The notes under the pieces were generated by a model. The model worked only from the letters and a program-made list of their open reading frames with translations. It had not been told where the DNA came from and did no database searches. The position numbers and the translations under genes were made by a program. From IMG/VR virus record IMGVR_UViG_3300006793_000039, positions 1-54,441 of that record: a DNA stretch of 54,441 bases. One strand, written 5' to 3'. Shown piece after piece: positions 29,306 through 41,808 of the stretch; within the stretch, counting starts at the first letter, position 1, and each line of letters opens with the position of its first letter. Source of the DNA: a virus.

Positions 29306-30049
29306 ATGATAAAAGATATATTTAAAGACATACTAAGGCATACTCACGCCTTAGGTTTTATTGAAATGGTTAAGATTAGTGGCGATGAGTCGTCTACTAC
29401 AATTGAAGCCATGGATGCAGACAAAACTGTTATCCTGCAAGGTAAACTACATAATCCTGTAGCAGACTTTGTAGATCAAACAGTAGGTCTTAGCAGAATG
29501 AGTGTACTAGATGGATATTTAAAATTTCCAGGTTTTGTAGACGAAGGTTCTGAAGTAAGTGTAGAAACACAGAGCAGAAACGGAGATGACATACCTGTAC
29601 AAATTAGTTTTAAAAGTGCAGAAGGACACACTGGTAGTTACAGATTTATGTTAGCAGATGTAATTAATCAGCAACTAAAATCTGTTACAATGAAAGAGAT
29701 CCCATGGGACGTTACTATTGTGCCATCACAGAAGAACTTAAAAGACTTAGGTTACTTCAATGGTGTGTTAGGTGGTTTTGAACCTGTGTTCTCTCCAAGT
29801 ACAGAAGATGGTGCATTATATTTTAGCATTGGCGAAGGTGCCGGTGATAAAGGTAAATTACCAATCAACAACAATGTCGATGGCGAACTATCCGGTAACT
29901 GGAAATGGGAAATTGATAAAGCACTAAGCATTCTAAGACTAAGCGATAGTGCTAATTGTACTGTTAGTTTTGCTAATGCAGGTGCAATGCAAATTGTTAT
30001 TGACAGTGGTTTAGGCGAATACAAATACATATTACCTGCTAAGAGTTAA
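29306..30049 (+). CDS. 45: Sliding clamp (gp45-like processivity factor)
   Basis: 247 residues (T4 gp45 228). Two repeated beta-alpha-beta halves, a weak sequence signature and a C-terminal strand YKYILPAKS like the end of gp45. In T4-like phages the clamp tethers the polymerase and also activates late transcription, fitting the late promoters seen here. It lies next to gene 43, and gp44 is at 1146. AAGAGGTGA precedes the ATG. Identification rests on size, context and pattern. Confidence 0.78.
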   Translation: MIKDIFKDILRHTHALGFIEMVKISGDESSTTIEAMDADKTVILQGKLHNPVADFVDQTVGLSRMSVLDGYLKFPGFVDEGSEVSVETQSRNGDDIPVQISFKSAEGHTGSYRFMLADVINQQLKSVTMKEIPWDVTIVPSQKNLKDLGYFNGVLGGFEPVFSPSTEDGALYFSIGEGAGDKGKLPINNNVDGELSGNWKWEIDKALSILRLSDSANCTVSFANAGAMQIVIDSGLGEYKYILPAKS

Positions 30050-30051
30050 AC

Positions 30052-31593
30052 ATGACAGAAGACTTAGGAAAGAAGCACCAGGATTGGGCAGTTTACCTGC
30101 CTGCTATTAGTGGCTTCTATGTAACACAATTACAAAAGATGAATGCTAATCCAAGTGAATGGAGATGTCCTGAAGGCTTTGAAAAAGGCACACAAGGCAT
30201 GAACTTCCTTGATCCTGAGAATAGTTATTATCATTATCCATGGGGTCTATACTCCGGTGGACACGCACACTTAGATCCTGTAAAAAGTGACGAACGTGAA
30301 CCAATGATACAAGGCAGAGACCGTAGCAAAACAATGATACTAGGAGACTCAGGTGGTTTCCAACTTGCTACTGGTGTTATTAAAATGGATTGGAGTAATG
30401 CAAAAGATCCCAATGACCCTGCTAGAACAGAGTTTTGTAATAAGATACTTACGTGGTTAGAGCATACAGCAGACTGGAGTATGACATTAGATGTTCCTGC
30501 TTTTGCGGCAGTTGGTAAACTAAGTGAAAGAACAGGACTTACAGAATTTCAAGACACACTAGATATTAGTCTACTTAATTTAGACTATTTTATGAGGAAC
30601 AGAACACCAGGTGCTACCAAGTTCTTAAATGTGTTAAGTGGTAGTAACGAAGAAAATAGCAAACAATGGTATGATGCTGTAAAGCATTTTTCCAATAAAA
30701 GTTTTGTGCAAGAAGCATACGGTGATGAGAATAGAACCTTAGAAGGTTACGCATTCGCTGGTATCAATATGAAACACATGTATAGTGTGTTAAGTAGACT
30801 ATTGGATCTTAGAGAAGATGGTTTACTTGAAGGTAAGGATTGGATACACTTCTTGGGTACTGGACGCCTTAATTGGGCATGTCACCTTACTAGTATCCAA
30901 AGACAGTTGAGAAAATATGACAATCCTAATATTACACTATCATTTGATGCGGCATCACCTTTTGTTAATACAGCATATGGCCAAACCTACACACATAATG
31001 AGTTTAGAGCCAAGCGATTCGGATACTTTATGGATAGAGCATTCGATAACAAAGATCTCAAAGGATCAAAGATGCCTATGCCTTTTGCACATTCCCCTAT
31101 AATGAGTAGACTTACAGTTGGTGACATCTGTGTTTTAGGACATGGTGATGTTAATAGGAATGGTAAAGAGACTACAACTAGTTGGGACACACTAAGTTAT
31201 GCACTTTATATGGGTCATAGTGTTTACAATCACATTACAGCAACGCAAGAAGCAAACAGACTTGCTGATATGGAAAAACACAGAACACCTACACATTGGA
31301 AGAACTGGAAGAAGGTAAAAGGCAGTAGTGTGAGCAATGAAACTTCTCCTTATGTACCAGGTACTATTTTGATGTTCGATAGTTTTGCAGAAGAAGTGTT
31401 AGATCCAAATAACACCAATGCAAGACAAATGTTAGAAGATAACAAAGAATTTTTAAAAGAGATTAGTTTCTCAGACGGTAGTGCTGAGCAAACTACATTT
31501 GGTTCGTTATTCGAAACAGAAGAATACGAGTCAGGTGACAGTGAAGCAGACATGCAAGAAGATATAATGAGGGCCGATTATGACGGAGAATAA
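30052..31593 (+). CDS. dpdA: DpdA/TGT-like tRNA-guanine transglycosylase family enzyme
   Basis: 513 residues. LGDSGGFQLATG (D99) matches the DSGGFQ catalytic motif of tRNA-guanine transglycosylases, TLDVP (D147) the second acidic site, YAFAGI (about 233-238) the GGxAxG-type loop, and LSFDAASP (D299) the nucleophile region. It lacks the TGT zinc-binding Cys signature that normally follows. Phage and bacterial DpdA relatives insert 7-deazaguanine bases into DNA. FolE and QueE at 40.2-41.8 kb support this. It is placed 3 nt after the clamp gene. Confidence 0.8.
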   Translation: MTEDLGKKHQDWAVYLPAISGFYVTQLQKMNANPSEWRCPEGFEKGTQGMNFLDPENSYYHYPWGLYSGGHAHLDPVKSDEREPMIQGRDRSKTMILGDSGGFQLATGVIKMDWSNAKDPNDPARTEFCNKILTWLEHTADWSMTLDVPAFAAVGKLSERTGLTEFQDTLDISLLNLDYFMRNRTPGATKFLNVLSGSNEENSKQWYDAVKHFSNKSFVQEAYGDENRTLEGYAFAGINMKHMYSVLSRLLDLREDGLLEGKDWIHFLGTGRLNWACHLTSIQRQLRKYDNPNITLSFDAASPFVNTAYGQTYTHNEFRAKRFGYFMDRAFDNKDLKGSKMPMPFAHSPIMSRLTVGDICVLGHGDVNRNGKETTTSWDTLSYALYMGHSVYNHITATQEANRLADMEKHRTPTHWKNWKKVKGSSVSNETSPYVPGTILMFDSFAEEVLDPNNTNARQMLEDNKEFLKEISFSDGSAEQTTFGSLFETEEYESGDSEADMQEDIMRADYDGE

Positions 31594-31777
31594 AGCATAC
31601 AGTGGTACATACACATTCGAAGGGCATGACGTACAATTTCATGTGTTGGAGAATGGTGCAACAATGGAAATAGTAGAAACTAAAGACGGTAAAACAATGC
31701 CTGTTAGACTTGTAGACCTTGAAGAAGGTGTAGACTTTCAGGATAAGTTAATTAAATGGGGGTACACTAGTTACTAA
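31580..31777 (+). CDS. Small hypothetical protein
   Basis: 65 residues, beta-rich, no recognised domain. Overlaps the DpdA-like gene by 14 nt and the next gene by 1 nt, so it is part of the same cluster. Confidence 0.6.
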   Translation: MTENKAYSGTYTFEGHDVQFHVLENGATMEIVETKDGKTMPVRLVDLEEGVDFQDKLIKWGYTSY

Positions 31778-32283
31778 TGGATAGAGAAGGACACGAAGAC
31801 GTAAAGTTTTTTGTTGGTACTGAGGTAGAGCAATCTCCTGCATACGGACAAAAAACATTATTTGTAGTTGGTTATCAGCCTAAGGAAGAAATACTTGCTA
31901 GGGCATTAAACAGCGGGTGTCCACATATCTATTTGGGTGCCAACCAAAGTTTCAACCCTCCAACTGATAAGGATTGGCAGGGTTGGGACGAACTTATTAC
32001 TGGACTTTTAAAAGATGATATTTGGATTACGTTAGACTTTGATGTTAGTTTAGCAGAAAGAGTATTAGAATGTGGCTGGACTGAGTATAGTACATTTATA
32101 CCAATGATTAGTGTTAAGTTACCTTACATTAATCAATTTAACTACAATGCTACACTTAAACTAGATGACAAAGACTTTAAAGCAACTAATCCAGGTGTTT
32201 GGTGTCATAGTTTACATGAACTACAAAATAGAAAAGGATTTACAGACTGGACAAAATATACCAAAGACGAGGTTATTGATTAA
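31777..32283 (+). CDS. Conserved hypothetical protein of marine T4-like phages
   Basis: 168 residues. It has a strong, domain-like pattern (VKFFVGTEVE, KTLFVVG, HIYLGANQSF, ITLDFD, PMISVKLPYI, NPGVWCH) that I associate with conserved unknowns in marine T4-like phages; no named function. Lies between DpdA-like and alternative oxidase genes, joined by 1-nt overlaps. Confidence 0.7.
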   Translation: MDREGHEDVKFFVGTEVEQSPAYGQKTLFVVGYQPKEEILARALNSGCPHIYLGANQSFNPPTDKDWQGWDELITGLLKDDIWITLDFDVSLAERVLECGWTEYSTFIPMISVKLPYINQFNYNATLKLDDKDFKATNPGVWCHSLHELQNRKGFTDWTKYTKDEVID

Positions 32284-32876
32284 TGCGAGACAAGTTAGCA
32301 ATGAGCATGACAAAGTTTTTTCGCTTTATAGCAGATACATTCTTTGCTAAACGTTATGGTCATAGAGCAGTTGTATTAGAAACAGTAGCAGGTGTTCCTG
32401 GCATGGTTGCTGGTATGTGGTTACACATGAAAAGCCTGCGTAAGATGAAAGTTGGGTATGGGCCTGACATAAGAGAGATGTTAGCAGAAGCAGAGAATGA
32501 AAGAATGCACTTAATGTTCTTTATTGAGATAGCACAACCTAATTGGTTTGAAAGGTATTTGGTTTTGTTTGCTCAATTTATTTTTATGTTATTTTACTCT
32601 GTATTGTATATAATAGATTACAAAACAGCACACAGAATGATTGCTTACTTTGAAGAAGAGGCAGTAAGAAGTTATACTAGTTATTTAGAATTAGTTGAAA
32701 GTGGTGAAGTGCCAAATGTACCTGCACCTAAACTTGCTATCAAATATTATAAAATGAAGGATGATGCTAAGTTAAGTGATTTGATTAAAAAAGTTAGAGC
32801 AGATGAACAACATCACAGCAAAATTAATCACAAGTACGCAGATGGCGATACATCATTTAAAAGGAAAAACGGTTGA
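32283..32876 (+). CDS. Alternative oxidase (AOX/PTOX-type di-iron quinol oxidase)
   Basis: 197 residues with all di-iron ligands of the alternative oxidase family: E33 in LETVAG, E73 and H76 in NERMH, E125 in EEEAV, and E175/H178 in ADEQHH. Hydrophobic segments at about 33-48 and 94-112 fit the interfacial membrane helices. The family oxidises quinol and reduces oxygen to water without pumping protons. Cyanophage versions (PTOX) relieve photosystem stress, but no photosynthesis genes are seen here, so it may rebalance respiration. Probably complete despite its small size. Confidence 0.9.
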   Translation: MRDKLAMSMTKFFRFIADTFFAKRYGHRAVVLETVAGVPGMVAGMWLHMKSLRKMKVGYGPDIREMLAEAENERMHLMFFIEIAQPNWFERYLVLFAQFIFMLFYSVLYIIDYKTAHRMIAYFEEEAVRSYTSYLELVESGEVPNVPAPKLAIKYYKMKDDAKLSDLIKKVRADEQHHSKINHKYADGDTSFKRKNG

Positions 32877-32901
32877 CATTGGCCACAAAAAATGATATAA
32901 T
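32873..32901 (+). promoter_or_regulatory. Sigma70-type promoter, near-copy of 39353
   Basis: TTGACA 32873-32878, a 17-nt spacer and TATAAT 32896-32901. From 32871 it matches the promoter at 39351 at all but one of 34 positions. Leader of about 14 nt with GGAG before ATG 32922. Confidence 0.9.
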
Positions 32902-32921
32902 AACTAATATGGAGAATCTAT

Positions 32922-34148
32922 ATGGAAGAAGGTAATTTGTACAAAATGAAAATGCGTAAACTGTTCTACATGGGACTCGAGTCTTATGAAGCAAGGTATA
33001 CATTACAATTACAAGACTGGAACGAGCGAGAGTTTAAAAAGCATGATATTGATTATGAAATAATCAAAGGTGAAGAACTTGATAACAGTAAAGCAATCGT
33101 TACAGGTAGTGTACTTGATGCACATGGAAGAAGTTATTACAGTCTAAGTCAAACAATGAACTTAGTACAGAAAATGAAGAACGGTGAAATCACAAGCGAT
33201 GACGTAATCTTCTATGAAGATATGTTTACACCAGGCTTAGAATGTTTACCTTACATAATGGACCAGTCTCCAGAAGAATACAGACCTAAAGTATTCCTAA
33301 GGTTCTTAGCACAAACAACAGACCCAGATGACTTCCTTATTAGAGAAGGTATGTTTGACTGGATGCGTAGATATGAACAAATGGTAGATGAGTTTGTTAC
33401 AGGTATTATTGTAGCAAGTGAAGAATTTGTAGCACACTTAAGAACAGCAGGATTTAAGAAGCCTATATATGTAACAGGCTTACCGTTTGGTAAAGAAGAA
33501 GTGCAAGAACGTGTTCCTAATCCTAAGCCACTTAATGAAAGAAGCAACAGAGTAGGCTTTGCGGCACGTTGGGACGATGAGAAGCAACCACACTTTTATA
33601 TGGACTTAGCAGAGGAGTATTACAAAATAGATCCTACTGTTGAGTTTGCAATCTTTTGTGGACACCCAGAACTTAAAAGTTCAGATCAAGAGTATGTTGA
33701 TAGAGCATTAGCATTACAAGAAGGTGATACTGCAAACTTTAAAATTTACACAGGCTTAAAGAAAAACGATTACTATAATTTGTTAGCAGACAGTAAAGTG
33801 TTATTCAATTGTGCATTGCAAGATTGGGTAAGCAATACTGTTAGTGAAGCCGATACATTTGGTACACTTACACTATATCCAGCATATAGAAGTTTCCCAG
33901 AAGTATTTGCTAACAACGGTAGACACTTATACGTTCCATGGAGTATGGAAGATTGTGTAAGCAAACTGTCTAATATGTTTGATGACATTAAAACAGATAA
34001 CCTAAGCGAATACAATATCGGTAAGATTAGTGACTATCAGAATGGCACTATCGAAAGAACATTAAAAGTACTTTCTGGATTAGGTCTTGAACAACAAAGA
34101 GACAGACAGCATTACAGAAGAAAGGTAGCAAAGGCAAAATATGATTGA
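32922..34148 (+). CDS. Glycosyltransferase-like protein (GT-B type)
   Basis: 408 residues. The C-terminal half has the GT-B/GT4 pattern: RVGFAARWDDEKQPHFYMDLA (a nucleotide-sugar domain start, near residue 207), a FCGHPE strand and a YTGLKKNDYYNLLADSKVLFN stretch. It could glycosylate DNA, a virion protein or a host surface molecule; T4 uses unrelated-looking alpha/beta-glucosyltransferases on DNA. ATG 32922 is chosen over the out-of-frame ATG 32909 because GGAG lies 7 nt ahead. Confidence 0.72.
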   Translation: MEEGNLYKMKMRKLFYMGLESYEARYTLQLQDWNEREFKKHDIDYEIIKGEELDNSKAIVTGSVLDAHGRSYYSLSQTMNLVQKMKNGEITSDDVIFYEDMFTPGLECLPYIMDQSPEEYRPKVFLRFLAQTTDPDDFLIREGMFDWMRRYEQMVDEFVTGIIVASEEFVAHLRTAGFKKPIYVTGLPFGKEEVQERVPNPKPLNERSNRVGFAARWDDEKQPHFYMDLAEEYYKIDPTVEFAIFCGHPELKSSDQEYVDRALALQEGDTANFKIYTGLKKNDYYNLLADSKVLFNCALQDWVSNTVSEADTFGTLTLYPAYRSFPEVFANNGRHLYVPWSMEDCVSKLSNMFDDIKTDNLSEYNIGKISDYQNGTIERTLKVLSGLGLEQQRDRQHYRRKVAKAKYD

Positions 34149-34317
34149 AGCATTAATGACAGTTGTTAATTTTTTTATAGGTATAGTGTTTGTTATAGTA
34201 GCGGCATACTTTGCCTATATGAGTAGTGTACTTGTTTCTGAAAGGAAAGCAAGGTATAGAGCAGGTACACATGATTATTACGATAATCCAATAGAGGAGA
34301 ACGATGAGCAGAATTAA
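34141..34317 (+). CDS. Small membrane protein (58 residues)
   Basis: A short gene overlapping the stop of the glycosyltransferase gene (ATGATTGA) and the start of the outer-membrane-protein gene. One membrane segment lies at about 8-30, with a charged C-terminal tail. No recognised family. The start-stop overlap at both ends matches the operon style and supports it being real. Confidence 0.6.
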   Translation: MIEALMTVVNFFIGIVFVIVAAYFAYMSSVLVSERKARYRAGTHDYYDNPIEENDEQN

Positions 34318-34966
34318 AAAAGCAGTATTGTTTATTTTAGTTATAGTAGGATTAGTATTAATTACTATGCCTGCTAATGCAACAGGCAATGCTAAATTTG
34401 GATGGACCCAAATTAATAGCGACACAACTACATTAAAGTTAAGTCTAGACCATGAATGGGATAATCCACTTATTGACTATGTTGTAGAAACAGACTATGT
34501 TTACAAGGAACAAGAAGACGTAGTCAAAATGGATAAGTTTAGTATTATAGGCAAAGCAAATAAAGATATTACACCTAAGTATTATGCATTTAGTGTTTCA
34601 AGTTATGATAGAGATAAATTGAGATTGTCAGGTGATAGAATAGTTACTGGTGGCGGCATTGGTATAAAAGTTTTTAGAAATGATAATTGGAAAATAAGTC
34701 ATGAGGCTTCAGTTGCATACTTAACCACAGATGAAGTAGACGAAGCAATACTTAGAAACAGTTTATGGGTATTTTATAAACTAAATGACAGTCTTAATAT
34801 TACTAACAAGTTGTTAAATGAAACAGGCACAGATACATATTTGCGTAATGAAACAGCAATTAATTATAGTTTAAATGAAAAGGTATCATTAGGTTTTAGT
34901 AACACTTACACAGAAGATCCGATTGACAATAATGTTTTAAGTGTTACAATAGGAGTTAAGTGGTAA
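34304..34966 (+). CDS. Exported outer-membrane beta-barrel, DUF481-like
   Basis: 220 residues. A signal peptide (basic start, hydrophobic core, ANA cleavage site near residue 27) precedes alternating beta strands. Strong DUF481/YdiY-like features are RNSLWVFYKLNDSLNI, NETAINYSLNEKVSLGF and the C-terminal VTIGVKW ending in tryptophan, typical of BAM-inserted barrels. A phage gene for an outer-membrane protein is unusual. It could alter receptors (superinfection exclusion) or permeability. AGGAGA precedes ATG 34304. Confidence 0.72.
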   Translation: MSRIKKAVLFILVIVGLVLITMPANATGNAKFGWTQINSDTTTLKLSLDHEWDNPLIDYVVETDYVYKEQEDVVKMDKFSIIGKANKDITPKYYAFSVSSYDRDKLRLSGDRIVTGGGIGIKVFRNDNWKISHEASVAYLTTDEVDEAILRNSLWVFYKLNDSLNITNKLLNETGTDTYLRNETAINYSLNEKVSLGFSNTYTEDPIDNNVLSVTIGVKW

Positions 34967-35184
34967 TGGGTCATCCTACTAATACACAGATTAAAAAAGC
35001 AATAGACGAAGGTGTTGCTAAAATACTCCGTGAGTTAGAAGTGATCAAACAACAAGGTCGCCCAGCAGGATTACACATTGAAAGCGGTTGGAAAGATAAA
35101 GAAAAAGAGGGCAGTTGGTACGAAGGCGGTAACCCGCATAAAGACGATAGCCAAGAAACATATGATCCTGAAGTAGATGATTGA
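34966..35184 (+). CDS. Small hypothetical protein
   Basis: 72 residues, hydrophilic. An N-terminal helix is followed by a Gly/Asp-rich tail. An upstream in-frame GTG (34960) is possible, but ATG 34966 overlapping the previous stop and served by AGGAG fits better. Function unknown. Confidence 0.55.
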   Translation: MGHPTNTQIKKAIDEGVAKILRELEVIKQQGRPAGLHIESGWKDKEKEGSWYEGGNPHKDDSQETYDPEVDD

Positions 35185-35272
35185 GATACTGATATGGAGT
35201 TTAATAGTAATTACATGGGCATCAGTAGGATTACATGTAATAAAAGAGTTTGTGAGAAATCACATAGAATAG
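35177..35272 (+). CDS. Tiny membrane peptide (31 residues)
   Basis: ATG 35177 overlaps the upstream stop by 8 nt and the frame runs 31 codons to TAG. About 18 hydrophobic residues form one membrane segment, followed by a basic end. Its start context is weak, but the overlap style matches 34141 and the frame fills a gap before the next AGGAGAATG. Could be chance. Confidence 0.42.
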   Translation: MIEILIWSLIVITWASVGLHVIKEFVRNHIE

Positions 35273-35281
35273 GAGAATGAA

Positions 35282-35692
35282 ATGATAGAACCTAGTGTAA
35301 AGAGACCTAGTTTATTTAGAAGAACTGTAATGGGACTTGTAAAAGGCTGGAGACGTGTAATGGATGTGAGATACAATCCATTAAGAGTAATTAAAGACCC
35401 AAGTTTACAAACATACTTTATGTTGGTATTGTTTACTGTATGGAGTGTGTTCTTTGGCTTCTTAGCCGCAAACTACTTAGGATTCTTTGATTATAATACT
35501 GTTACTAGTATTATTATACATATTTCTATTTTACTACCATTAGCATTTACTAATGCAATCTTTGTTGATGCAGAACGTGATGGACACAAATGGTTAAAGG
35601 AATGGAAGGAAGAGCAAAATAGATATACCATAATAACTAATAGGTTGAAAAAGAAAAACCTAGTTATGTGGGATCCAGGCAAGGAGGCGTAA
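35282..35692 (+). CDS. Membrane protein with two predicted spans
   Basis: 136 residues. A basic N-terminal segment precedes two hydrophobic segments (about 44-66 and 74-93) and a charged cytoplasmic tail. GGAG lies 8 nt before ATG 35282. No family recognised. Another holin candidate by topology, but its basic, longer tails and location in a cluster of small membrane genes make that less likely. Confidence 0.62.
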   Translation: MIEPSVKRPSLFRRTVMGLVKGWRRVMDVRYNPLRVIKDPSLQTYFMLVLFTVWSVFFGFLAANYLGFFDYNTVTSIIIHISILLPLAFTNAIFVDAERDGHKWLKEWKEEQNRYTIITNRLKKKNLVMWDPGKEA

Positions 35693-35874
35693 TGGCAATA
35701 TCAGATGAGATGAGAGAACAACTAGAACAGATTGTTCAGTATGGTGATCAAATAAAAGCAATGTTCAAAGAACAAGATGACGTTGACTATGAGATTGGTG
35801 ACTACGATGAACCTATCACACAACTGTTAGGTCATATGAATGAAGTAATGGAAACAATTGACGGAGGTTGGTAG
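35692..35874 (+). CDS. Small acidic hypothetical protein
   Basis: 60 residues, very acidic and helical. An upstream in-frame GTG (35668) exists, but ATG 35692 follows AAGGAGG and overlaps the previous stop, so it is preferred. Function unknown. Confidence 0.55.
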   Translation: MAISDEMREQLEQIVQYGDQIKAMFKEQDDVDYEIGDYDEPITQLLGHMNEVMETIDGGW

Positions 35875-36299
35875 TGAGAAGTATTTGGGTAACATTCAGT
35901 AAAGAGGGTATTCACAAGTACCCTGCCGCCTTGGAAGATCCTAATTTAGCAACAGGCGATTGGGACGATGTATCCTTTTTAGGATATCCACACAGACACA
36001 TCTTTCACTTTAAGGTATGGCTTGAAGTGTTTCATGATGACAGAGACGTAGAATTTATACAGTTCAAGAGATGGATGGAAAGACTGTATGCACATGACAC
36101 ATTGCAATTAGATTACAAGAGTTGTGAAATGATTGCAGACGATTTAGCGAGTGAGATACAAGCAATGTATCCTGATCGCTACATAAAGATTTCGGTAGCC
36201 GAGGATAACGAGAACGGTTGCGAAATGGAATACTTTGTTGAGGATCATGAGGAAGGCCCAGATCAAGACTTAGTTGATGTATTTGAGAGTTTAAAGTGA
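35874..36299 (+). CDS. QueD/6-pyruvoyl-tetrahydropterin synthase-like protein (tentative)
   Basis: 141 residues from GTG 35874 (GGAGG 6 nt ahead). The spacing of H14 (in IHKYPAA), H40 and H42 (in PHRHIFHF) resembles the three zinc histidines of QueD/PTPS. DVEFIQFK and CEMIADDLASEI match the following helices, and ISVAEDNENG ends with the conserved glutamate. The catalytic Cys of QueD is not seen before HRH. A tunnelling-fold relative in the 7-deazaguanine pathway is plausible; call tentative. Confidence 0.45.
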   Translation: MRSIWVTFSKEGIHKYPAALEDPNLATGDWDDVSFLGYPHRHIFHFKVWLEVFHDDRDVEFIQFKRWMERLYAHDTLQLDYKSCEMIADDLASEIQAMYPDRYIKISVAEDNENGCEMEYFVEDHEEGPDQDLVDVFESLK

Positions 36300-36871
36300 A
36301 CAATGTAATTGGTATTAATGGTTCTATACATCCGCTATACAGCGGTGCTTATATAGAAAAAAGTAATCTTGGTATTTTACATTTACCAAAGAATGCTTCT
36401 TCGTCAATAAAACGTGCATTAAAACCAATTACTGATAAAACCGAAATAATTTTAAAAGATCTTACTATAGATAAATTTTGTGTAATATTAAGAGATCCAG
36501 TAGAACGATTTATAAGTGCTGTAAATATGTATTTGCACCCTAGAAAGATTACATCTAATTATGTAGACATTAGGAAAGAGGATAACAAATACGGTATATT
36601 TAAAAGCAACGATGCACACTTTTTTTCGCAAAATACTTTTATTGAGGGTTTGGACAAAAGTAAAATTGATTTCTTTTGGTTAAACAATAATATAATTGAT
36701 GATTTAAATAATTTTTATAATTTAAATATGGAACAAAATTATATAAATCGATTTAGTAAAATAGTAAAAAGTGTTGATATTGACATTATTAAAGATGTTT
36801 ATGTAAAAGACTATGAGTTAATTGACTCTGTTAAGTTCGTTAATAAGGTAGACAATGGAAACATCAATTGA
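36296..36871 (+). CDS. Sulfotransferase-like protein, tandem copy 1
   Basis: 191 residues. LHLPKNASSSIKRAL matches the PAPS 5'-phosphosulfate loop (near residue 30) and VILRDPVERFISAVNMYL the 3'-phosphate motif (near 63-80). GTG start overlaps the preceding TGA by 3 nt. It is paralogous to the next gene. Low GC and many Asn/Lys codons. Acceptor unknown. Confidence 0.72.
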   Translation: MNNVIGINGSIHPLYSGAYIEKSNLGILHLPKNASSSIKRALKPITDKTEIILKDLTIDKFCVILRDPVERFISAVNMYLHPRKITSNYVDIRKEDNKYGIFKSNDAHFFSQNTFIEGLDKSKIDFFWLNNNIIDDLNNFYNLNMEQNYINRFSKIVKSVDIDIIKDVYVKDYELIDSVKFVNKVDNGNIN

Positions 36872-37445
36872 TAACAAATATACAAATTGTATGCCAGGTG
36901 ATTGTGTATACAACAAAAAAGAGGACATTGCATTCTTGTTAGTACCTAAATGTGCTACAAGTGTAATTAGAGATTTTGAAAAAACAAATAACGATTGGAA
37001 AAGAATTACATTATGGGAAGAAGAAAAATGCCCAAGTAGGTTTATTGTGATATTAAGAGATCCAGTAGAACGATTTATCAGTACTATTAATATGTACTTA
37101 GGTTGGAGAGAAGTAGAACCTCATACAAACTATGTTACTTTTAATTTTAGTGATGAAGGATTTTATTTAGAATCTAACGATGCACATTTTAAGCCACAAA
37201 AAAGTTTCTTAATTGATATGTTTGATATTATAAAAAAATATAATGCCAACCCTATCATAGATTATTTTTATTATAACAAAAATATTTATAATCAAATCAA
37301 TGATGAATATGGTTTCAACATTGACGCAACAAAACGTTTGATGCAATCAATAGACATTGTTAATGACGTTAATAAATCAGTAGTCAGACAGGCTTATAGA
37401 GCCGATTACGATTTAATTAAATCTGTACAATTTAAAAACACATAG
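36855..37445 (+). CDS. Sulfotransferase-like protein, tandem copy 2
   Basis: 196 residues, paralogue of the upstream gene. LLVPKCATSVIRDF is the 5'-loop and VILRDPVERFISTINMYL the 3'-phosphate motif; NDAHF follows in both copies. The coding DNA around the RDPVERF motif is identical over more than 20 nt, indicating duplication. The two genes overlap by 17 nt. The cysteine in the P-loop-like motif differs from copy 1. Confidence 0.72.
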   Translation: METSIDNKYTNCMPGDCVYNKKEDIAFLLVPKCATSVIRDFEKTNNDWKRITLWEEEKCPSRFIVILRDPVERFISTINMYLGWREVEPHTNYVTFNFSDEGFYLESNDAHFKPQKSFLIDMFDIIKKYNANPIIDYFYYNKNIYNQINDEYGFNIDATKRLMQSIDIVNDVNKSVVRQAYRADYDLIKSVQFKNT

Positions 37446-37454
37446 GAGATAATT

Positions 37455-37637
37455 ATGACAGAGACACATTTAAAAATTAAAGCACTTTTCGAAGAGTATG
37501 TAAGTGAAAACGAAAAATTTAAAGAAGGCCAAGGCGTAAAAGCATCGGCAACAAGAGCAAGGAAGGCATTAATGGAAATTACTAAACTAGCGAAAGTTAG
37601 AAGAGGTGAGATTCAAGACGCAAAAAATAATGCCTAA
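37455..37637 (+). CDS. Histone Hc1-like small basic protein
   Basis: 60 residues, helical and lysine/arginine-rich. KASATRARKALMEITKLAKV resembles the conserved core of chlamydial histone H1-like Hc1 and similar phage proteins, though it lacks a long Lys-rich tail. It may bind DNA. AGGAG precedes the ATG. The call is moderate. Confidence 0.5.
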   Translation: MTETHLKIKALFEEYVSENEKFKEGQGVKASATRARKALMEITKLAKVRRGEIQDAKNNA

Positions 37638-37794
37638 CATTAAACGTATTCCTTTCACTGAAAAGAAAGGAAACAAGGAGACAGTAGTCCAACCTACTAA
37701 ATCTAAACCAGCAGGATCTCTTACAGATGTTGTTGATGAAGTTGAGGATTGGGGCGGACTTTTAGATCCAAAGGAGGAAAATAAAGATGAGTGA
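37630..37794 (+). CDS. Small hypothetical protein
   Basis: 54 residues from ATG 37630, overlapping the upstream stop by 8 nt (an in-frame GTG at 37606 is an alternative). A basic N-terminal half precedes an acidic C-terminal half. No domain recognised. It overlaps galE by 8 nt. Confidence 0.5.
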   Translation: MPNIKRIPFTEKKGNKETVVQPTKSKPAGSLTDVVDEVEDWGGLLDPKEENKDE

Positions 37795-38782
37795 TAAACC
37801 AACAGTAGTTATTACAGGCGGACTTGGTTTTATTGGTGCACAGGTAAGTAAAACTTTTGCAGGTGCTGGATATGACGTAATTGTTATAGATTCTAACACG
37901 AGCAGAAAGTGGACACTACCAGAAGGTGCTACTTTATTTCCACATGAATTTCAGGCTACAACTACAGCAGGTATACTCGAAATGTTTAAACCACAAGCGG
38001 TTATACATTTAGCGGCCAGTCATGTTGTTCCTGATAGTATTATTGACCCTGGCAAGTATTATAAAAATAATGTGTCGGGTACTCAAGCACTATTAGATAT
38101 GTGTGTTAAAGCAGGAGTTAAAAACTTTATCTTTAGCGGTTCTAGTAGTGTATATGGTGAAAGAGATAGCAGAGAACCATTTGCAGAAACTCTTACACCA
38201 ACACCAATGAGTCCGTATGCAATGAGTAAGCACATGACAGAACTTATGTTAGAAGATTACAGCAAAGCATATGGGTTAAATTATATTAGTACAAGATATT
38301 TTAATGCCGCTGGTGCAGACCCAGAAGGTAAAAATGGTTATACACAAGAACCAGCAACTCATGTAATGCCTATCATTATTGATAAAATTACAAATGACGA
38401 GGTATTTAATATTTGTGGCGATGATTACGATACTAAAGACGGTACTTGCATTAGAGATTACTGTCATATACAAGACATAGCAAATGCTAAACTAAAAGCA
38501 GTAGAGCATTTAAGCAATGACGGTGAAAGTGGTATTGTAAACTTAGGCTCTGGTACAGGATTTAGTATTCATGATTTAATAATTTCAGCACAAAACGTTG
38601 TTGGAAAAAGTTTAAAATATGAAGTAGGTCCTAGAAGAGCAGGAGATCCATCGTACTTATGTGGAGATATATCTAAAGCCAAAACTTTATTAGATTGGGA
38701 ACCAACATATTCATTAGATGATATGTTTGCACATTCTAAGTTTTGGGTAGACAATAAAAACAAGGTAATTAAAAATAAATGA
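37787..38782 (+). CDS. galE: NAD-dependent epimerase, GalE-like
   Basis: A 331-residue extended SDR. GGLGFIG (N-terminal NAD loop), SSSVYG with the catalytic Ser, YAMSK (YxxxK), RYFNAAGADP and RDYCHIQD are signatures of UDP-glucose/UDP-GlcNAc 4-epimerases. It supplies UDP-galactose-type sugars, perhaps for the glycosyltransferase at 32922. AAGGAGG lies before the ATG. Gene name by family similarity. Confidence 0.85.
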   Translation: MSDKPTVVITGGLGFIGAQVSKTFAGAGYDVIVIDSNTSRKWTLPEGATLFPHEFQATTTAGILEMFKPQAVIHLAASHVVPDSIIDPGKYYKNNVSGTQALLDMCVKAGVKNFIFSGSSSVYGERDSREPFAETLTPTPMSPYAMSKHMTELMLEDYSKAYGLNYISTRYFNAAGADPEGKNGYTQEPATHVMPIIIDKITNDEVFNICGDDYDTKDGTCIRDYCHIQDIANAKLKAVEHLSNDGESGIVNLGSGTGFSIHDLIISAQNVVGKSLKYEVGPRRAGDPSYLCGDISKAKTLLDWEPTYSLDDMFAHSKFWVDNKNKVIKNK

Positions 38783-39351
38783 TAGGAAGACGTAAATCAG
38801 TAAACGTTATTAATAGAACAGGTACACCTGTTATGTCAGTTGTCGGTGCAATAGGCAAAGGAGATGATTTAAGTTTAATCAAAAAGAAATTTCCTGTAAC
38901 TGATAAAGAAATAATAGATGTTATACATTTCTTTTGTAATAATGTAGATTTTGATCAAAGTCATTTGTCTGTGTTTAAAGCAGTTGAATTTGATGATAAT
39001 AAAATATCAGTACAACTTGACGAAATATCTGCAGAATTCTACTTAAGAATGTTAAACAGATATATCTTTAAATATAAAAAAATAACTGATTTTGATGATA
39101 TGCTATCAGAAGGTCTTAAAATGACATTTGGTGTTGTTTTAAACCTTAGTAGCAAGATTCTTGACGACACATATAATATATCAGGAGATAGCGAAGTGTT
39201 AAATCCTGTTTTAGATGCTGGATTTTATAAAGAACTTAAATTGTTTTTAGAATTTACTGGCAGAGATATTGTAGAGGAGGCATCTAAAATAAACTTAGAT
39301 GATTTTGATAAAGTGGACTTTGTTTTATTAGAAAACGACTTTGAAAGATAG
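38779..39351 (+). CDS. Hypothetical protein
   Basis: 190 residues, helical C-terminal two thirds with alternating charged and hydrophobic residues; no family recognised. Overlaps galE by 4 nt and is followed at once by the promoter of the phosphoribosyltransferase. Confidence 0.65.
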   Translation: MIGRRKSVNVINRTGTPVMSVVGAIGKGDDLSLIKKKFPVTDKEIIDVIHFFCNNVDFDQSHLSVFKAVEFDDNKISVQLDEISAEFYLRMLNRYIFKYKKITDFDDMLSEGLKMTFGVVLNLSSKILDDTYNISGDSEVLNPVLDAGFYKELKLFLEFTGRDIVEEASKINLDDFDKVDFVLLENDFER

Positions 39352-39352
39352 G

Positions 39353-39381
39353 TTGACATTGGCCACAAAAAATGGTATAAT
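39353..39381 (+). promoter_or_regulatory. Sigma70-type promoter, leaderless, near-copy of 32873
   Basis: TTGACA 39353-39358, a 17-nt spacer and TATAAT 39376-39381. Six nt then lead to ATG 39388 at the predicted +1. From 39351 it matches the promoter at 32871 at all but one of 34 positions. Confidence 0.9.
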
Positions 39382-39387
39382 AAGAAC

Positions 39388-39876
39388 ATGGATAAACTAT
39401 ATTATAGTTGGGACGACTTAAACAGAGATTGTAGAATTATTGTGCGAGAAATGGCACATGAAAGTTACAAGCCTGAAGTTATAATTGGTCCTGGAAGAGG
39501 TGCGTATGCCTTTGGTGTAATGATGAGTCATTACTATGAAGTGCCATTTGAAGCATTTAGATGGCAAACTAGAGACGCACATATCGAAGATTCGGAGACT
39601 CTAAGACATATTTTATCTAAATACAATGATAAAACAGTTTTAGTTGTTGACGATATTAATGATACTGGAACAACATTACAAGGTATTGATAAGGTAATCA
39701 CAGACTATGTAGATAGCACAACTAATAAGATGGCTTATGCACATCAGGATATTAGATATGCTACATTGTTTGATAAAGAGTCTAGCAGTTTTGACAAAGT
39801 TGAATTTACTGCTAACAATGTATTACCCGATCAAGAACGTTGGATAGTGTTTCCGTATGAGGAGTGGTGGAGATGA
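39388..39876 (+). CDS. Purine phosphoribosyltransferase-like protein
   Basis: 162 residues. VIIGPGRGAYAFGV is the type I PRTase N-terminal strand, and VLVVDDINDTGTTL (about residues 88-101) is the PRPP-binding loop. Similar proteins salvage xanthine/guanine/hypoxanthine using PRPP; the exact base is unclear. Its mRNA looks leaderless. It heads the folE-queE cluster, so a link to deazapurine or GTP supply is possible but unproven. Confidence 0.8.
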   Translation: MDKLYYSWDDLNRDCRIIVREMAHESYKPEVIIGPGRGAYAFGVMMSHYYEVPFEAFRWQTRDAHIEDSETLRHILSKYNDKTVLVVDDINDTGTTLQGIDKVITDYVDSTTNKMAYAHQDIRYATLFDKESSSFDKVEFTANNVLPDQERWIVFPYEEWWR

Positions 39877-40067
39877 GAACAGCAGAAATAGTAAATGTAG
39901 ATGGTACTGGTTACATAGTACATCTATTAAAAGACGGTGATGCTTTTGGTAAAATTGACGTTAGAGATAAGTCGATACACTATGCACAGGATGTTGCAGA
40001 GAATTGGGAAAATGGTATCTTAAGGGAAGACAATGAGTACATCAAGAAGTTTGAAAAATCATCTTAG
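39873..40067 (+). CDS. Small hypothetical protein
   Basis: 64 residues from ATG 39873 overlapping the PRTase stop; an in-frame GTG at 39864 is also open. A beta-hairpin-like N-terminal half, charged C-terminal half. No family recognised. Confidence 0.55.
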   Translation: MRTAEIVNVDGTGYIVHLLKDGDAFGKIDVRDKSIHYAQDVAENWENGILREDNEYIKKFEKSS

Positions 40068-40245
40068 TGTCTTAGAAGCAAGGCACAGAGAGTTAGATAA
40101 AGCAATTAACGAGGAGTATGATCATTATGATAATGATGAAATTGTTAAAAAGCACAAATTTCAGAAACTTAAACTCAAGCAAGACATCGAACAACTTAAA
40201 CATGAAATTTCTATAAAGGAGAAAGAAGAACATGGAAACAAGTAA
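40033..40245 (+). CDS. DUF465/YdcH-like small coiled-coil protein
   Basis: 70 residues. LEARHRELDKAINEEYDH, then a KHKFQKLKLKQDIEQL helix: the two-helix pattern of DUF465. Overlaps the previous gene by 35 nt and folE by 14 nt. Function unknown in bacteria too. Confidence 0.65.
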   Translation: MSTSRSLKNHLSVLEARHRELDKAINEEYDHYDNDEIVKKHKFQKLKLKQDIEQLKHEISIKEKEEHGNK

Positions 40246-40921
40246 AAAAATTAAACAAAGATTAGTTGAGGCAGGCAAAAGACATTGGGCCGGCGACAAT
40301 ATCTCTGACTTTATTGAAGACGGAGAGAAGCAACAACTGATTGACGAACTTGCGGTTAAGTTCGAGGATGTATTACAAGGCTTGGTTATTGATACTGAAA
40401 ATGATCCTAACAGTAATGATACTGGTAGGCGTCTTGCTAAAATGTATATCAATGAACTAATGGCTGGTAGATACGAAAACATGCCTAATGCAACTGCTTT
40501 CCCTAACGACAGCGAAGATAGATATGAAGGTATGCTGGTTGTAAGAAGTGAACTCACAAGTATGTGTTCACATCACCATCAGATTGTTAGAGGTGTGGCA
40601 TACATTGGTATCATTGCCGCAGACAAACTAATTGGTTTGAGTAAGTACACTAGGATTGCACAATGGTGTGCGGCTAGAGGTACATTACAAGAAGAACTTG
40701 CTAACGACATTGTTAGAGAGATTCAAAAAGCAACAGGGGCCGAGCACTTAGGTGTGTATGTACAAGCCACACATGGTTGCGTAGAGAACAGAGGTGTTAA
40801 GGCACATAGTAGTCTTACACAAACAACTGTATTAAAAGGCGCATTTAAAAATGACGCAGGTACAAAGAAAGAGTTTATGGATAACATTAAACTACAACAA
40901 CAATATTCTTGCGATAAGTAA
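40232..40921 (+). CDS. folE: GTP cyclohydrolase I (FolE)
   Basis: 229 residues, full-length GCH-I (E. coli 222). SMCSHHHQ carries the zinc Cys and His, IGLSKYTRIAQW matches the family core, THGCVENRGV supplies the second Cys, and SSLTQTTVLKGAF is the substrate-pocket motif. It converts GTP to dihydroneopterin triphosphate, the first step of both folate and 7-deazaguanine (queuosine-like) synthesis. AAAGGAG precedes the ATG. queE starts 1 nt before its end, pointing to the deazaguanine route. Confidence 0.92.
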   Translation: METSKKIKQRLVEAGKRHWAGDNISDFIEDGEKQQLIDELAVKFEDVLQGLVIDTENDPNSNDTGRRLAKMYINELMAGRYENMPNATAFPNDSEDRYEGMLVVRSELTSMCSHHHQIVRGVAYIGIIAADKLIGLSKYTRIAQWCAARGTLQEELANDIVREIQKATGAEHLGVYVQATHGCVENRGVKAHSSLTQTTVLKGAFKNDAGTKKEFMDNIKLQQQYSCDK

Positions 40922-41808
40922 TGACATTAAAGTATAGCGAAACATTTTATTCAGCACAAGGGGAAGGCCAGTATGTAGGTATCCCTAGTCTGTGGATGAG
41001 ATTCTTCCTATGCAATTTACAATGTAATGGCTTTGGACAAAAAGACCCAACAGACCCTAGCACATATGATTTACCATATGAAAAATTAGATATCACAGAC
41101 ATCACTAATGTATTTGATTTACCTGTGTTTGAAAAAGGTTGTGATAGCAGTTACACTTGGAGTAAGAAATATAAACATCTTATCACTGATAAAACTGTAG
41201 ATGAAGCCGTAGACGAACTTACAGCACTTCTACCGCACGGTAAGTTTGTACACCCAGTTACACAACAAAACGCACACATGGTCTTTACAGGCGGCGAGCC
41301 AATGCTTAAAAACACACAGCCTGGCATGATGAACATTATAGAAGAGTTCAAACGCAGAGATAATATGCCAATGAACGTTACTGTGGAAACTAACGGCACC
41401 AAGCCTATCACAGATGAATTTGCTGATTGGGTACATCGTAATTATACAGGTTGGATAGGCAGAGAATGGTATTGGAGTTTATCGCCTAAGTTATGGAGTA
41501 CTGCTGGTGAGAAGCCTAAGAAAGCAATACAGCCAGAAGTAATTGGTAGATATGCTGAAGTAAGTCCTAAAGGACAATTGAAGTTTGTTGTTAATGGCTC
41601 AGAAGCAAGTTGGCAAGAAGTGGAAGACAATGTAAAACTGTTTAGAGATGCTGGCTGTAATTTCCCTGTATGGATTATGGGAGTTGGCGGCACATTTGAA
41701 GGCTTAGTACAAACTGAAGCCACCATTGCCGATGAGGCTATACAACGTGGATACAATTATACAAGCAGAGTCCACGTTCATATATACGGAAATGCAATAG
41801 GAAAATAA
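40921..41808 (+). CDS. queE: 7-carboxy-7-deazaguanine synthase (QueE)
   Basis: A 295-residue radical SAM enzyme. ETFYSAQGEG and LWMRFFLCNLQC are QueE signatures. The third cluster cysteine is displaced to about 70 residues later (GCDSSYTW), an expanded loop compared with CxxxCxxC. TGGEPML gives the SAM-binding site. It makes CDG from carboxy-tetrahydropterin. It overlaps folE by one base. QueC is not in the window, so the final base may be CDG-derived or finished by host enzymes. Confidence 0.87.
   Translation: MTLKYSETFYSAQGEGQYVGIPSLWMRFFLCNLQCNGFGQKDPTDPSTYDLPYEKLDITDITNVFDLPVFEKGCDSSYTWSKKYKHLITDKTVDEAVDELTALLPHGKFVHPVTQQNAHMVFTGGEPMLKNTQPGMMNIIEEFKRRDNMPMNVTVETNGTKPITDEFADWVHRNYTGWIGREWYWSLSPKLWSTAGEKPKKAIQPEVIGRYAEVSPKGQLKFVVNGSEASWQEVEDNVKLFRDAGCNFPVWIMGVGGTFEGLVQTEATIADEAIQRGYNYTSRVHVHIYGNAIGK

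Follow-up and report, generated by a model that had tools for sequence, protein, structure and literature searches.

A likely QueC-independent 7-deazaguanine DNA-hypermodification module built around a DpdA2-related transglycosylase in a jumbo-phage lineage

Modification of DNA with 7-deazaguanine bases is a known way for phages to shield their genomes. In the nt-1/DpdA2 group, named for Vibrio phage nt-1 and the transglycosylase DpdA2, Schizotequatrovirus 6E351A was found by mass spectrometry to carry 15% dPreQ1 in its DNA, according to PMC12028318. Here we analyze a gene module on a complete IMG/VR virus record, IMGVR_UViG_3300006793_000039, whose whole length of 54,441 bases is called the window; genes are named by their first coordinate. 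It is centered on a DpdA-like gene at 30052 and extends to a QueE gene ending at 41808. We consider it likely that the module is a DNA-hypermodification system of a jumbo-phage lineage, in which a base derived from 7-carboxy-7-deazaguanine (CDG) independently of QueC would be inserted by a DpdA2-related transglycosylase. The window is very likely a fragment of a phage genome, because the phage genomes with relatives of the module all exceed 280 kb.

The module resembles four described groups, each in part. The DpdA2 cluster of nt-1 and KVP40 (Schizotequatrovirus) has an enzyme of the tRNA-guanine transglycosylase (TGT) type with the same motif order (profile E 2.7e-12), and FolE and a QueD-type gene beside DpdA2; nt-1 also has a QueE, as PMC6884629 reports. 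On the other hand, nt-1 possesses QueC (E 5.7e-54) and lacks both the QueD-like gene and the glycosyltransferase of the module, and no nt-1 or KVP40 record is among the tblastn matches of the 30052 clade. In the DpdA1/archaeosine cluster of phage 9g, dpdA likewise adjoins a replicative clamp gene, and FolE, QueD and QueE are shared, whereas a QueC-domain protein is present and the profile similarity to DpdA1 is just E 0.007. Acidovorax phage ACP17, Xanthomonas phage X1 and Synechococcus phage BUCT-ZZ01 have FolE, QueE, a QueD-like gene and the same glycosyltransferase family beside DpdA, with a true QueD in the genome; ACP17 and BUCT-ZZ01 lack QueC, and the weak QueC match of X1 is an NAD synthase. 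Their transglycosylase, however, is DpdA2 itself and not a member of the 30052 clade. The Wroclawvirus phages PA5oct, Paride and Cassandra have a DpdA-like protein 49% identical over 96% and homologues of the 31777 and QueD-like genes. Cassandra also has the glycosyltransferase, a phosphoribosyltransferase, QueE, FolE and two true QueD, but its FolE and QueD lie ~54 kb and its 31777 homologue ~30 kb from dpdA.

The 30052 gene (30052..31593, + strand) encodes 513 amino acids and is predicted to be a DpdA2-related DNA-guanine transglycosylase by its TGT fold, a DpdA2 profile match and conserved Asp. An original prediction, made from the letters of the window alone, had proposed a scattered 7-deazaguanine route of four genes (DpdA-like, QueD-like, FolE and QueE), all of which are indeed open frames, and had read the first as a TGT/DpdA-type enzyme next to a clamp gene from its DSGGFQ and LSFDAASP motifs. 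Both motifs are present and form invariant or near-invariant columns in 36 aligned sequences. All 75 aligned relatives retain D99, D147 and D299. We take the order DSGGFQ, LDxP, S/QG, EG, HxLG, SxDxxS to be that of TGT motifs; by this order D99 is presumably the general base, D147 the base-recognition residue and D299 the nucleophile.

An AlphaFold model based on 27 sequences from the window and viral contigs has a mean predicted local distance difference test score (pLDDT) of 85.9 and a predicted template modeling score (pTM) of 0.87. When it was compared with 999 solved chains, all 50 matches listed were tRNA-guanine transglycosylases, the best with Z 20.2 over 305 residues at a root-mean-square deviation of 4.5 Å. 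Among predicted viral proteins, its Foldseek matches include the tRNA guanine transglycosylase of Achromobacter phage Motura (E 4.7e-11) and R9TGF0 of Vibrio phage nt-1 (E 1.3e-8).

Kinship was assessed by profile comparison with hhalign. Once three further DpdA2 proteins and relatives found in bacterial assemblies are included, the 30052 clade aligns to DpdA2 at Prob 97.6 and E 2.7e-12 over 184 columns; a narrower alignment against DpdA2 (nt-1, KVP40 and relatives) gives just Prob 16 and E 0.0016, with the motifs in register. Similarity to DpdA1 is not significant (Prob 5.5, E 0.007), and a control comparison with QueE gives E 0.64. From these values we place the 30052 protein, as profiles can place it, as a DpdA2-related transglycosylase of a separate clade that is unnamed in Pfam, PHROGs, NCBIfam and PADLOC. 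It has no match among the Pfam or NCBIfam models, its best PHROGs match is at E 0.065, and sequence searches of the Protein Data Bank (PDB) with it returned nothing informative. An unrelated triose phosphate isomerase (TIM)-barrel enzyme, the outcome that the original prediction had set against its own reading, did not emerge: the structure ranks with TGT enzymes and the profile links to DpdA2.

Named relatives were found in 11 Pseudomonas jumbo-phage records (PA5oct, MIJ3, Paride and kin, ~49% identity), Sinorhizobium phage Phosso (29.5% identity) and Vibrio phage 2.275.O (35.8% identity over 43%). The homologue is annotated as a hypothetical protein in 13 of 13 phage records. In 2.275.O it lies two genes upstream of QueF, which is followed by a vitamin-uptake-type transporter (PF02592 by the record's note), QueC, an aminohydrolase and FolE. 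The gene right after this homologue (L068:9729-10838) weakly matches an amidoligase model (PF12224, E 1.8e-4, just under cutoff).

The TGT fold is common to enzymes that modify tRNA, so the module could in principle serve a viral TGT that alters decoding rather than DNA. The CxCxxC zinc motif marks tRNA-acting TGT enzymes; it is missing from the family consensus of the 30052 protein, where C360 is the sole invariant Cys. In addition, the profiles place it nearest to DpdA2, which occurs in phages with modified DNA (PMC12028318), and the gene adjoins a sliding-clamp-like gene. Action on tRNA thus appears very improbable, although no search was aimed at QueA or QueG, and DNA would be the target.

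The clamp-like gene (29306..30049, + strand) has a product that is 45.6% identical to that of a Cassandra gene two places upstream of the Cassandra dpdA-like gene and 30.1% identical to that of a Phosso gene annotated as sliding clamp beta, with no Pfam match. In phages 9g and Me-ZS1, too, an annotated clamp gene adjoins dpdA.

A scan of viral contigs for 30052 relatives gave 65 distinct loci. Core genes were counted in the 44 of them that extend 9 kb or more downstream from the DpdA-like gene, using profiles built from viral loci; tblastn with the window proteins alone gave the same core-gene pattern with fewer distant matches. Four genes are kept in 43 or 44 of the 44 loci: the 31777 gene, the QueD-like gene, a glycosyltransferase and QueE. 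The gene set is not a chance assembly, because all 44 loci have the QueD-like gene and 43 have QueE.

FolE (GTP cyclohydrolase I, GCH-I; 40232..40921, + strand) matches PF01227 at E 6.3e-38, with 130.4 bits against a cutoff of 27, and is present in 30 of the 44 viral loci and in seven of nine records examined. QueE (7-carboxy-7-deazaguanine synthase; 40921..41808, + strand) matches phrog_2076 at E 1.1e-51; its family profile matches the solved QueE 6nhl at E 1.5e-17. The two genes overlap by one base, in agreement with the adjacent, overlapping GCH-I and QueE genes noted originally. QGEG and TGGEP are invariant among 25 aligned QueE sequences. The cluster motif of the window QueE is CX3C-X38-C, with the third Cys displaced; within the group, CX3C-X(34-44)-C occurs in 18 and CX3CX2C in 7 of the 25, both among otherwise alike modules. 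By these matches, FolE and QueE of the window are securely identified as genuine.

The QueD-like gene (35874..36299, + strand; phrog_17812 E 1.1e-31) starts with GTG and has an alternative TTG start at 35868, from which we number its residues. In all 37 aligned family members H16, H42, H44, R59, E62, C86, E87 and E112 are kept, and L38 occupies the position of the QueD catalytic Cys. By the QueD motif we take H16, H42 and H44 to be the zinc-binding His and E112 to be the C-terminal Glu. The three His without an obvious catalytic Cys had been noticed beforehand and hold for the whole family, but the suggestion that this gene completes the early steps as QueD has to be given up: Leu replaces the catalytic Cys in 37 of 37 members, and true QueD is a separate gene in larger relatives. 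Comparison of the QueD-like profile with true phage QueD gives E 9.4e-5 and Prob 58.8 over 43 C-terminal columns. Neither the 35874 protein nor the window matches the Pfam PTPS family PF01242, and a PDB profile search with the QueD-like alignment returned 13 matches, all at E of at least 0.23 and mainly bacterioferritin. The 35874 protein is probably a QueD paralogue, to judge from its motif, and not QueD. In Vibrio phage Bakedbeans and Chryseobacterium phage MA9V-3 (L113:8215-9363, L116:8431-9309), the QueD-like domain forms the C-terminal part of a larger open reading frame (ORF).

Of 10 records examined, 7 contain true QueD (PF01242): four large contigs and the phages Phosso, 2.275.O and Cassandra, the last with two copies next to FolE. 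Both Cassandra and Phosso, which are complete, contain FolE, true QueD, QueE and the DpdA-like gene, with no match to QueC. A search for queC and queD beyond the four genes, proposed with the original prediction, thus located true QueD in larger relatives and neither gene in the window record.

A homologue of the QueD-like gene occurs in 26 phage records, from which 11 representatives were taken: Cassandra for 11 Pseudomonas records, phiST for 5 Cellulophaga records, ACP17 for 2 records, and eight singles. By profiles run on the fetched stretches, FolE is present in 11 and QueE in 9 of the 11; true QueD was detected by Pfam in 10. QueC, on the other hand, exceeds the cutoff in only one of them (phage D479), versus all 11 comparison phages without a QueD-like gene, in 10 of which QueE was located. 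The near-exclusivity has a Fisher p of 3.4e-5, to be taken only as a guide since the comparison phages are not random: three are the reference clusters and eight were hand-picked for diversity from 40 listed of 310 records, some with the pathway annotation in view, and 2 of the 11 QueC matches are partial. Because QueC is found in 1 of 11 phages with the QueD-like gene and in 11 of 11 without it, the QueD-like protein seems to stand in for QueC and to act on CDG.

The search for QueC itself covered 22 virus contigs, the window included. The QueC model PF06508 does not match the window record, where QueC had not been seen before either, nor Cassandra, Phosso, G001 (385 kb), G002, G003, G004 or G006; it does match contig G005 and phage 2.275.O. 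Among the window and 15 relative contigs, three exceed the cutoff (G007, G011 and G012), and G009, G010 and G017 have matches under it. The matches in G007, G009, G010, G017 and phage X1 were rejected as QueC, as Pfam identifies them as NAD synthases; the G011 match has a score and ORF length as in G007.

The distribution also bears on an ordinary preQ0 route, in which a host QueC or a divergent phage QueC would convert CDG, the DpdA-like enzyme would insert preQ0, and the QueD-like protein would be a helper or a leftover. Supply of pathway steps by hosts is discussed by Hutinet et al. 2019 (PMC6884629), where Mycobacterium phage Bipper is likewise described as lacking QueC alone, and the divergent QueC-family proteins of contigs G005 and G012 and phage D479 (23.7-33.7 bits, cutoff 22) would fit such a route. 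The QueD-like gene, however, is present at every one of the 44 loci with invariant metal-type His and Glu, and its near-exclusivity with QueC across 22 phages is unexpected for a leftover. We therefore regard the preQ0 route as unlikely, and the base is probably derived from CDG.

The proposed course is as follows. FolE, a true QueD encoded elsewhere, and QueE would convert GTP to CDG. The QueD-like protein, in place of QueC and preQ0, would then process CDG, in the simplest case by decarboxylating it to 7-deazaguanine. The 30052 transglycosylase would remove guanine from replicated phage DNA and insert the deaza base, via a covalent intermediate on Asp299 with Asp99 as general base, and a phosphoribosyltransferase may salvage the released guanine. 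Finally, the glycosyltransferase and the 31777 protein would probably carry out a further step on the inserted base or its precursor. The decarboxylation, as we infer it, has a possible parallel: Cui et al. in 2023 reportedly predicted DpdL to be a CDG decarboxylase. DpdL would do the step proposed here for the 35874 protein.

Several results weigh against this reading. For the transglycosylase, PF01702 (Pfam TGT) has no match in the 30052 protein, and the PADLOC DpdA models give none either, although the proven DpdA of 9g itself scores just E 0.02 there. The Foldseek ranking of its model against the PDB is weak: TGT subunits come first at E 6.0e-4 and 1.0e-3, a single match lies at or below 0.001, and xylanase TIM barrels follow from E 4.7e-3. 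The QueD kinship of 35874 is moderate, falling to E 5.9e-4 and Prob 29.1 over 87 columns without the two longest rows. True QueD has no PF01242 match in the window record and was not found in 15 further relative contigs, all of them fragments of 56-97 kb. The divergent QueC-family proteins in G005, G012 and D479 count here as well. Lastly, the decarboxylase and the glycosyltransferase pull apart, as plain 7-deazaguanine has no obvious sugar acceptor; either the glycosyltransferase has CDG or some other molecule as its acceptor, or the reaction of the QueD-like protein is not a decarboxylation.

Three parts of the module had gone unseen in the original prediction, of which the DpdA-type enzyme, FolE and QueE stand: the glycosyltransferase, the 31777 protein and the phosphoribosyltransferase. 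The GT4-type glycosyltransferase (32922..34148, + strand) matches PF00534 at E 1.5e-4, under the curated cutoff, and its family profile matches solved group-1 (GT4-type) glycosyltransferases at E 9.9e-6 at best. It is present in 43 of the 44 viral loci. A profile built without the named phages matches proteins of BUCT-ZZ01 (E 1.6e-150), Phosso, Cassandra, ACP17 and X1 (E 1.8e-37). In these five unrelated phages the glycosyltransferase gene adjoins the QueD-like gene or is one gene away from it, and in four of them a DpdA gene is in the same block, the exception being Phosso with dpdA ~170 kb off. Over whole records, 5 of the 11 phages that have the QueD-like gene also have the glycosyltransferase, against 0 of the 11 that lack it (p 0.035, with a profile that includes the five).

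The 31777 gene (31777..32283, + strand) encodes a protein of 168 amino acids found at 44 of 44 viral loci, with homologues in further phage records, 11 of them PA5oct-like and 2 of Acidovorax phage ACP17. Its model is confident (pLDDT 90.7) and has only weak fold matches (Z at most 6.6). A cluster-less QueE was considered for it and rejected: the Bacillus subtilis QueE scores just Z 6.0 and 5.8 at 19-23% identity, short of what the comparison tool treats as meaningful, and hhalign gives no match. By conservation at these loci, the 31777 protein and the predicted glycosyltransferase are core members of the module that had been overlooked.

The glycosyltransferase, together with an epimerase of the module, might nevertheless modify another target (the cell surface, another base or a protein), leaving the DNA base sugar-free. 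Surface-modifying glycosyltransferases are common in phages as a matter of general knowledge, and the gene is missing both in 6 of the 11 phages that have the QueD-like gene and at 31 of the 39 bacterial-assembly loci. Against this stand its presence in 43 of 44 viral loci, its position by the QueD-like gene in five unrelated phages, four also with a DpdA of either type, and the 8 of 39 bacterial-assembly loci that pair it with dpdA, the same eight having a YhhQ-like neighbor. Another target is thus a serious contender to which we incline slightly less than to its opposite; the evidence for the glycosyltransferase as a partner in the module is circumstantial but strong.

The loci in bacterial assemblies come from a scan of bacterial and archaeal genomes that found 44 with 30052 relatives. 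Five of them (L149-L153) resemble jumbo-phage contigs binned into genomes and carry much of the module. In eight of the remaining 39, a member of the same glycosyltransferase family lies beside dpdA; these eight, and no others, also have a membrane protein of one BLAST cluster there. The three of these membrane proteins that were scanned all match the YhhQ-type PF02592, two over and one under the cutoff. YhhQ is a preQ0 transporter, according to PMC6884629. Not all 39 need be chromosomal, as a homologue of a phage clamp is present in L180 and several of the contigs are short. Four of the eight loci have a second glycosyltransferase that lies two genes from dpdA and is homologous to one beside DpdA2 in BUCT-ZZ01 (family members at L170, L173, L174, L181 and L110:6373-7713). 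Two clusters of large proteins, mostly of 540-900 amino acids, adjoin dpdA in 16 and 14 of the 39 loci; of six such proteins scanned with Pfam, five had no match and one just E 0.0099. These large proteins (e.g. L170:9321-11072 and L157:5241-7925) are possible restriction or modification partners.

We tentatively put forward, as a conjecture that may well fail, that a DpdA2-type enzyme, a GT4-type enzyme and a 168-amino-acid partner produce glycosylated 7-deazaguanine in DNA, and that the same transglycosylase-glycosyltransferase pair, with a YhhQ-type importer replacing the synthesis genes, forms a so far unrecognized DNA-modification island in Rhodobacteraceae, Azospirillum and other bacterial assemblies. 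We know of no printed account of this class of base in DNA. A literature search of open-licence text found no glycosylated deazaguanine, a weak negative given that scope; the glycosyltransferase in the DpdA paper PMC12028318 is unrelated.

Two accessory genes complete the module. An NAD-dependent nucleotide-sugar epimerase (37787..38782, + strand; PF01370 E 7e-55), a possible sugar supplier, is present in 34 of 44 loci. The phosphoribosyltransferase (39388..39876, + strand; PF00156 E 1.4e-11), a candidate for the salvage of released guanine, is present in 30 of 44, with homologues in the 7-deazaguanine clusters of BUCT-ZZ01, Cassandra and Flavobacterium phage immuto.

Two further observations concern neighboring genes. 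A phage-encoded alternative oxidase lies at 32283-32876 (PF01786 E 8.7e-69), with tblastn matches in 6 of the 65 viral loci, all close relatives. At 36296-37445, two neighboring ORFs share VILRDPVERFISxxNMYL and look sulfotransferase-like by eye.

The module belongs to a known kind, and its purpose would be to conceal phage DNA from restriction enzymes. Its new features are a transglycosylase clade unnamed in the family libraries used, a Cys-less QueD-like protein where QueC would be expected, and two unrecognized core partners, a glycosyltransferase and a 168-amino-acid protein. The P. aeruginosa phages PA5oct, MIJ3 and Paride, which lend themselves to laboratory work, carry relatives; Paride replicates in dormant cells (PMC10761892). 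The loci in bacterial assemblies suggest that cells, too, use the chemistry.

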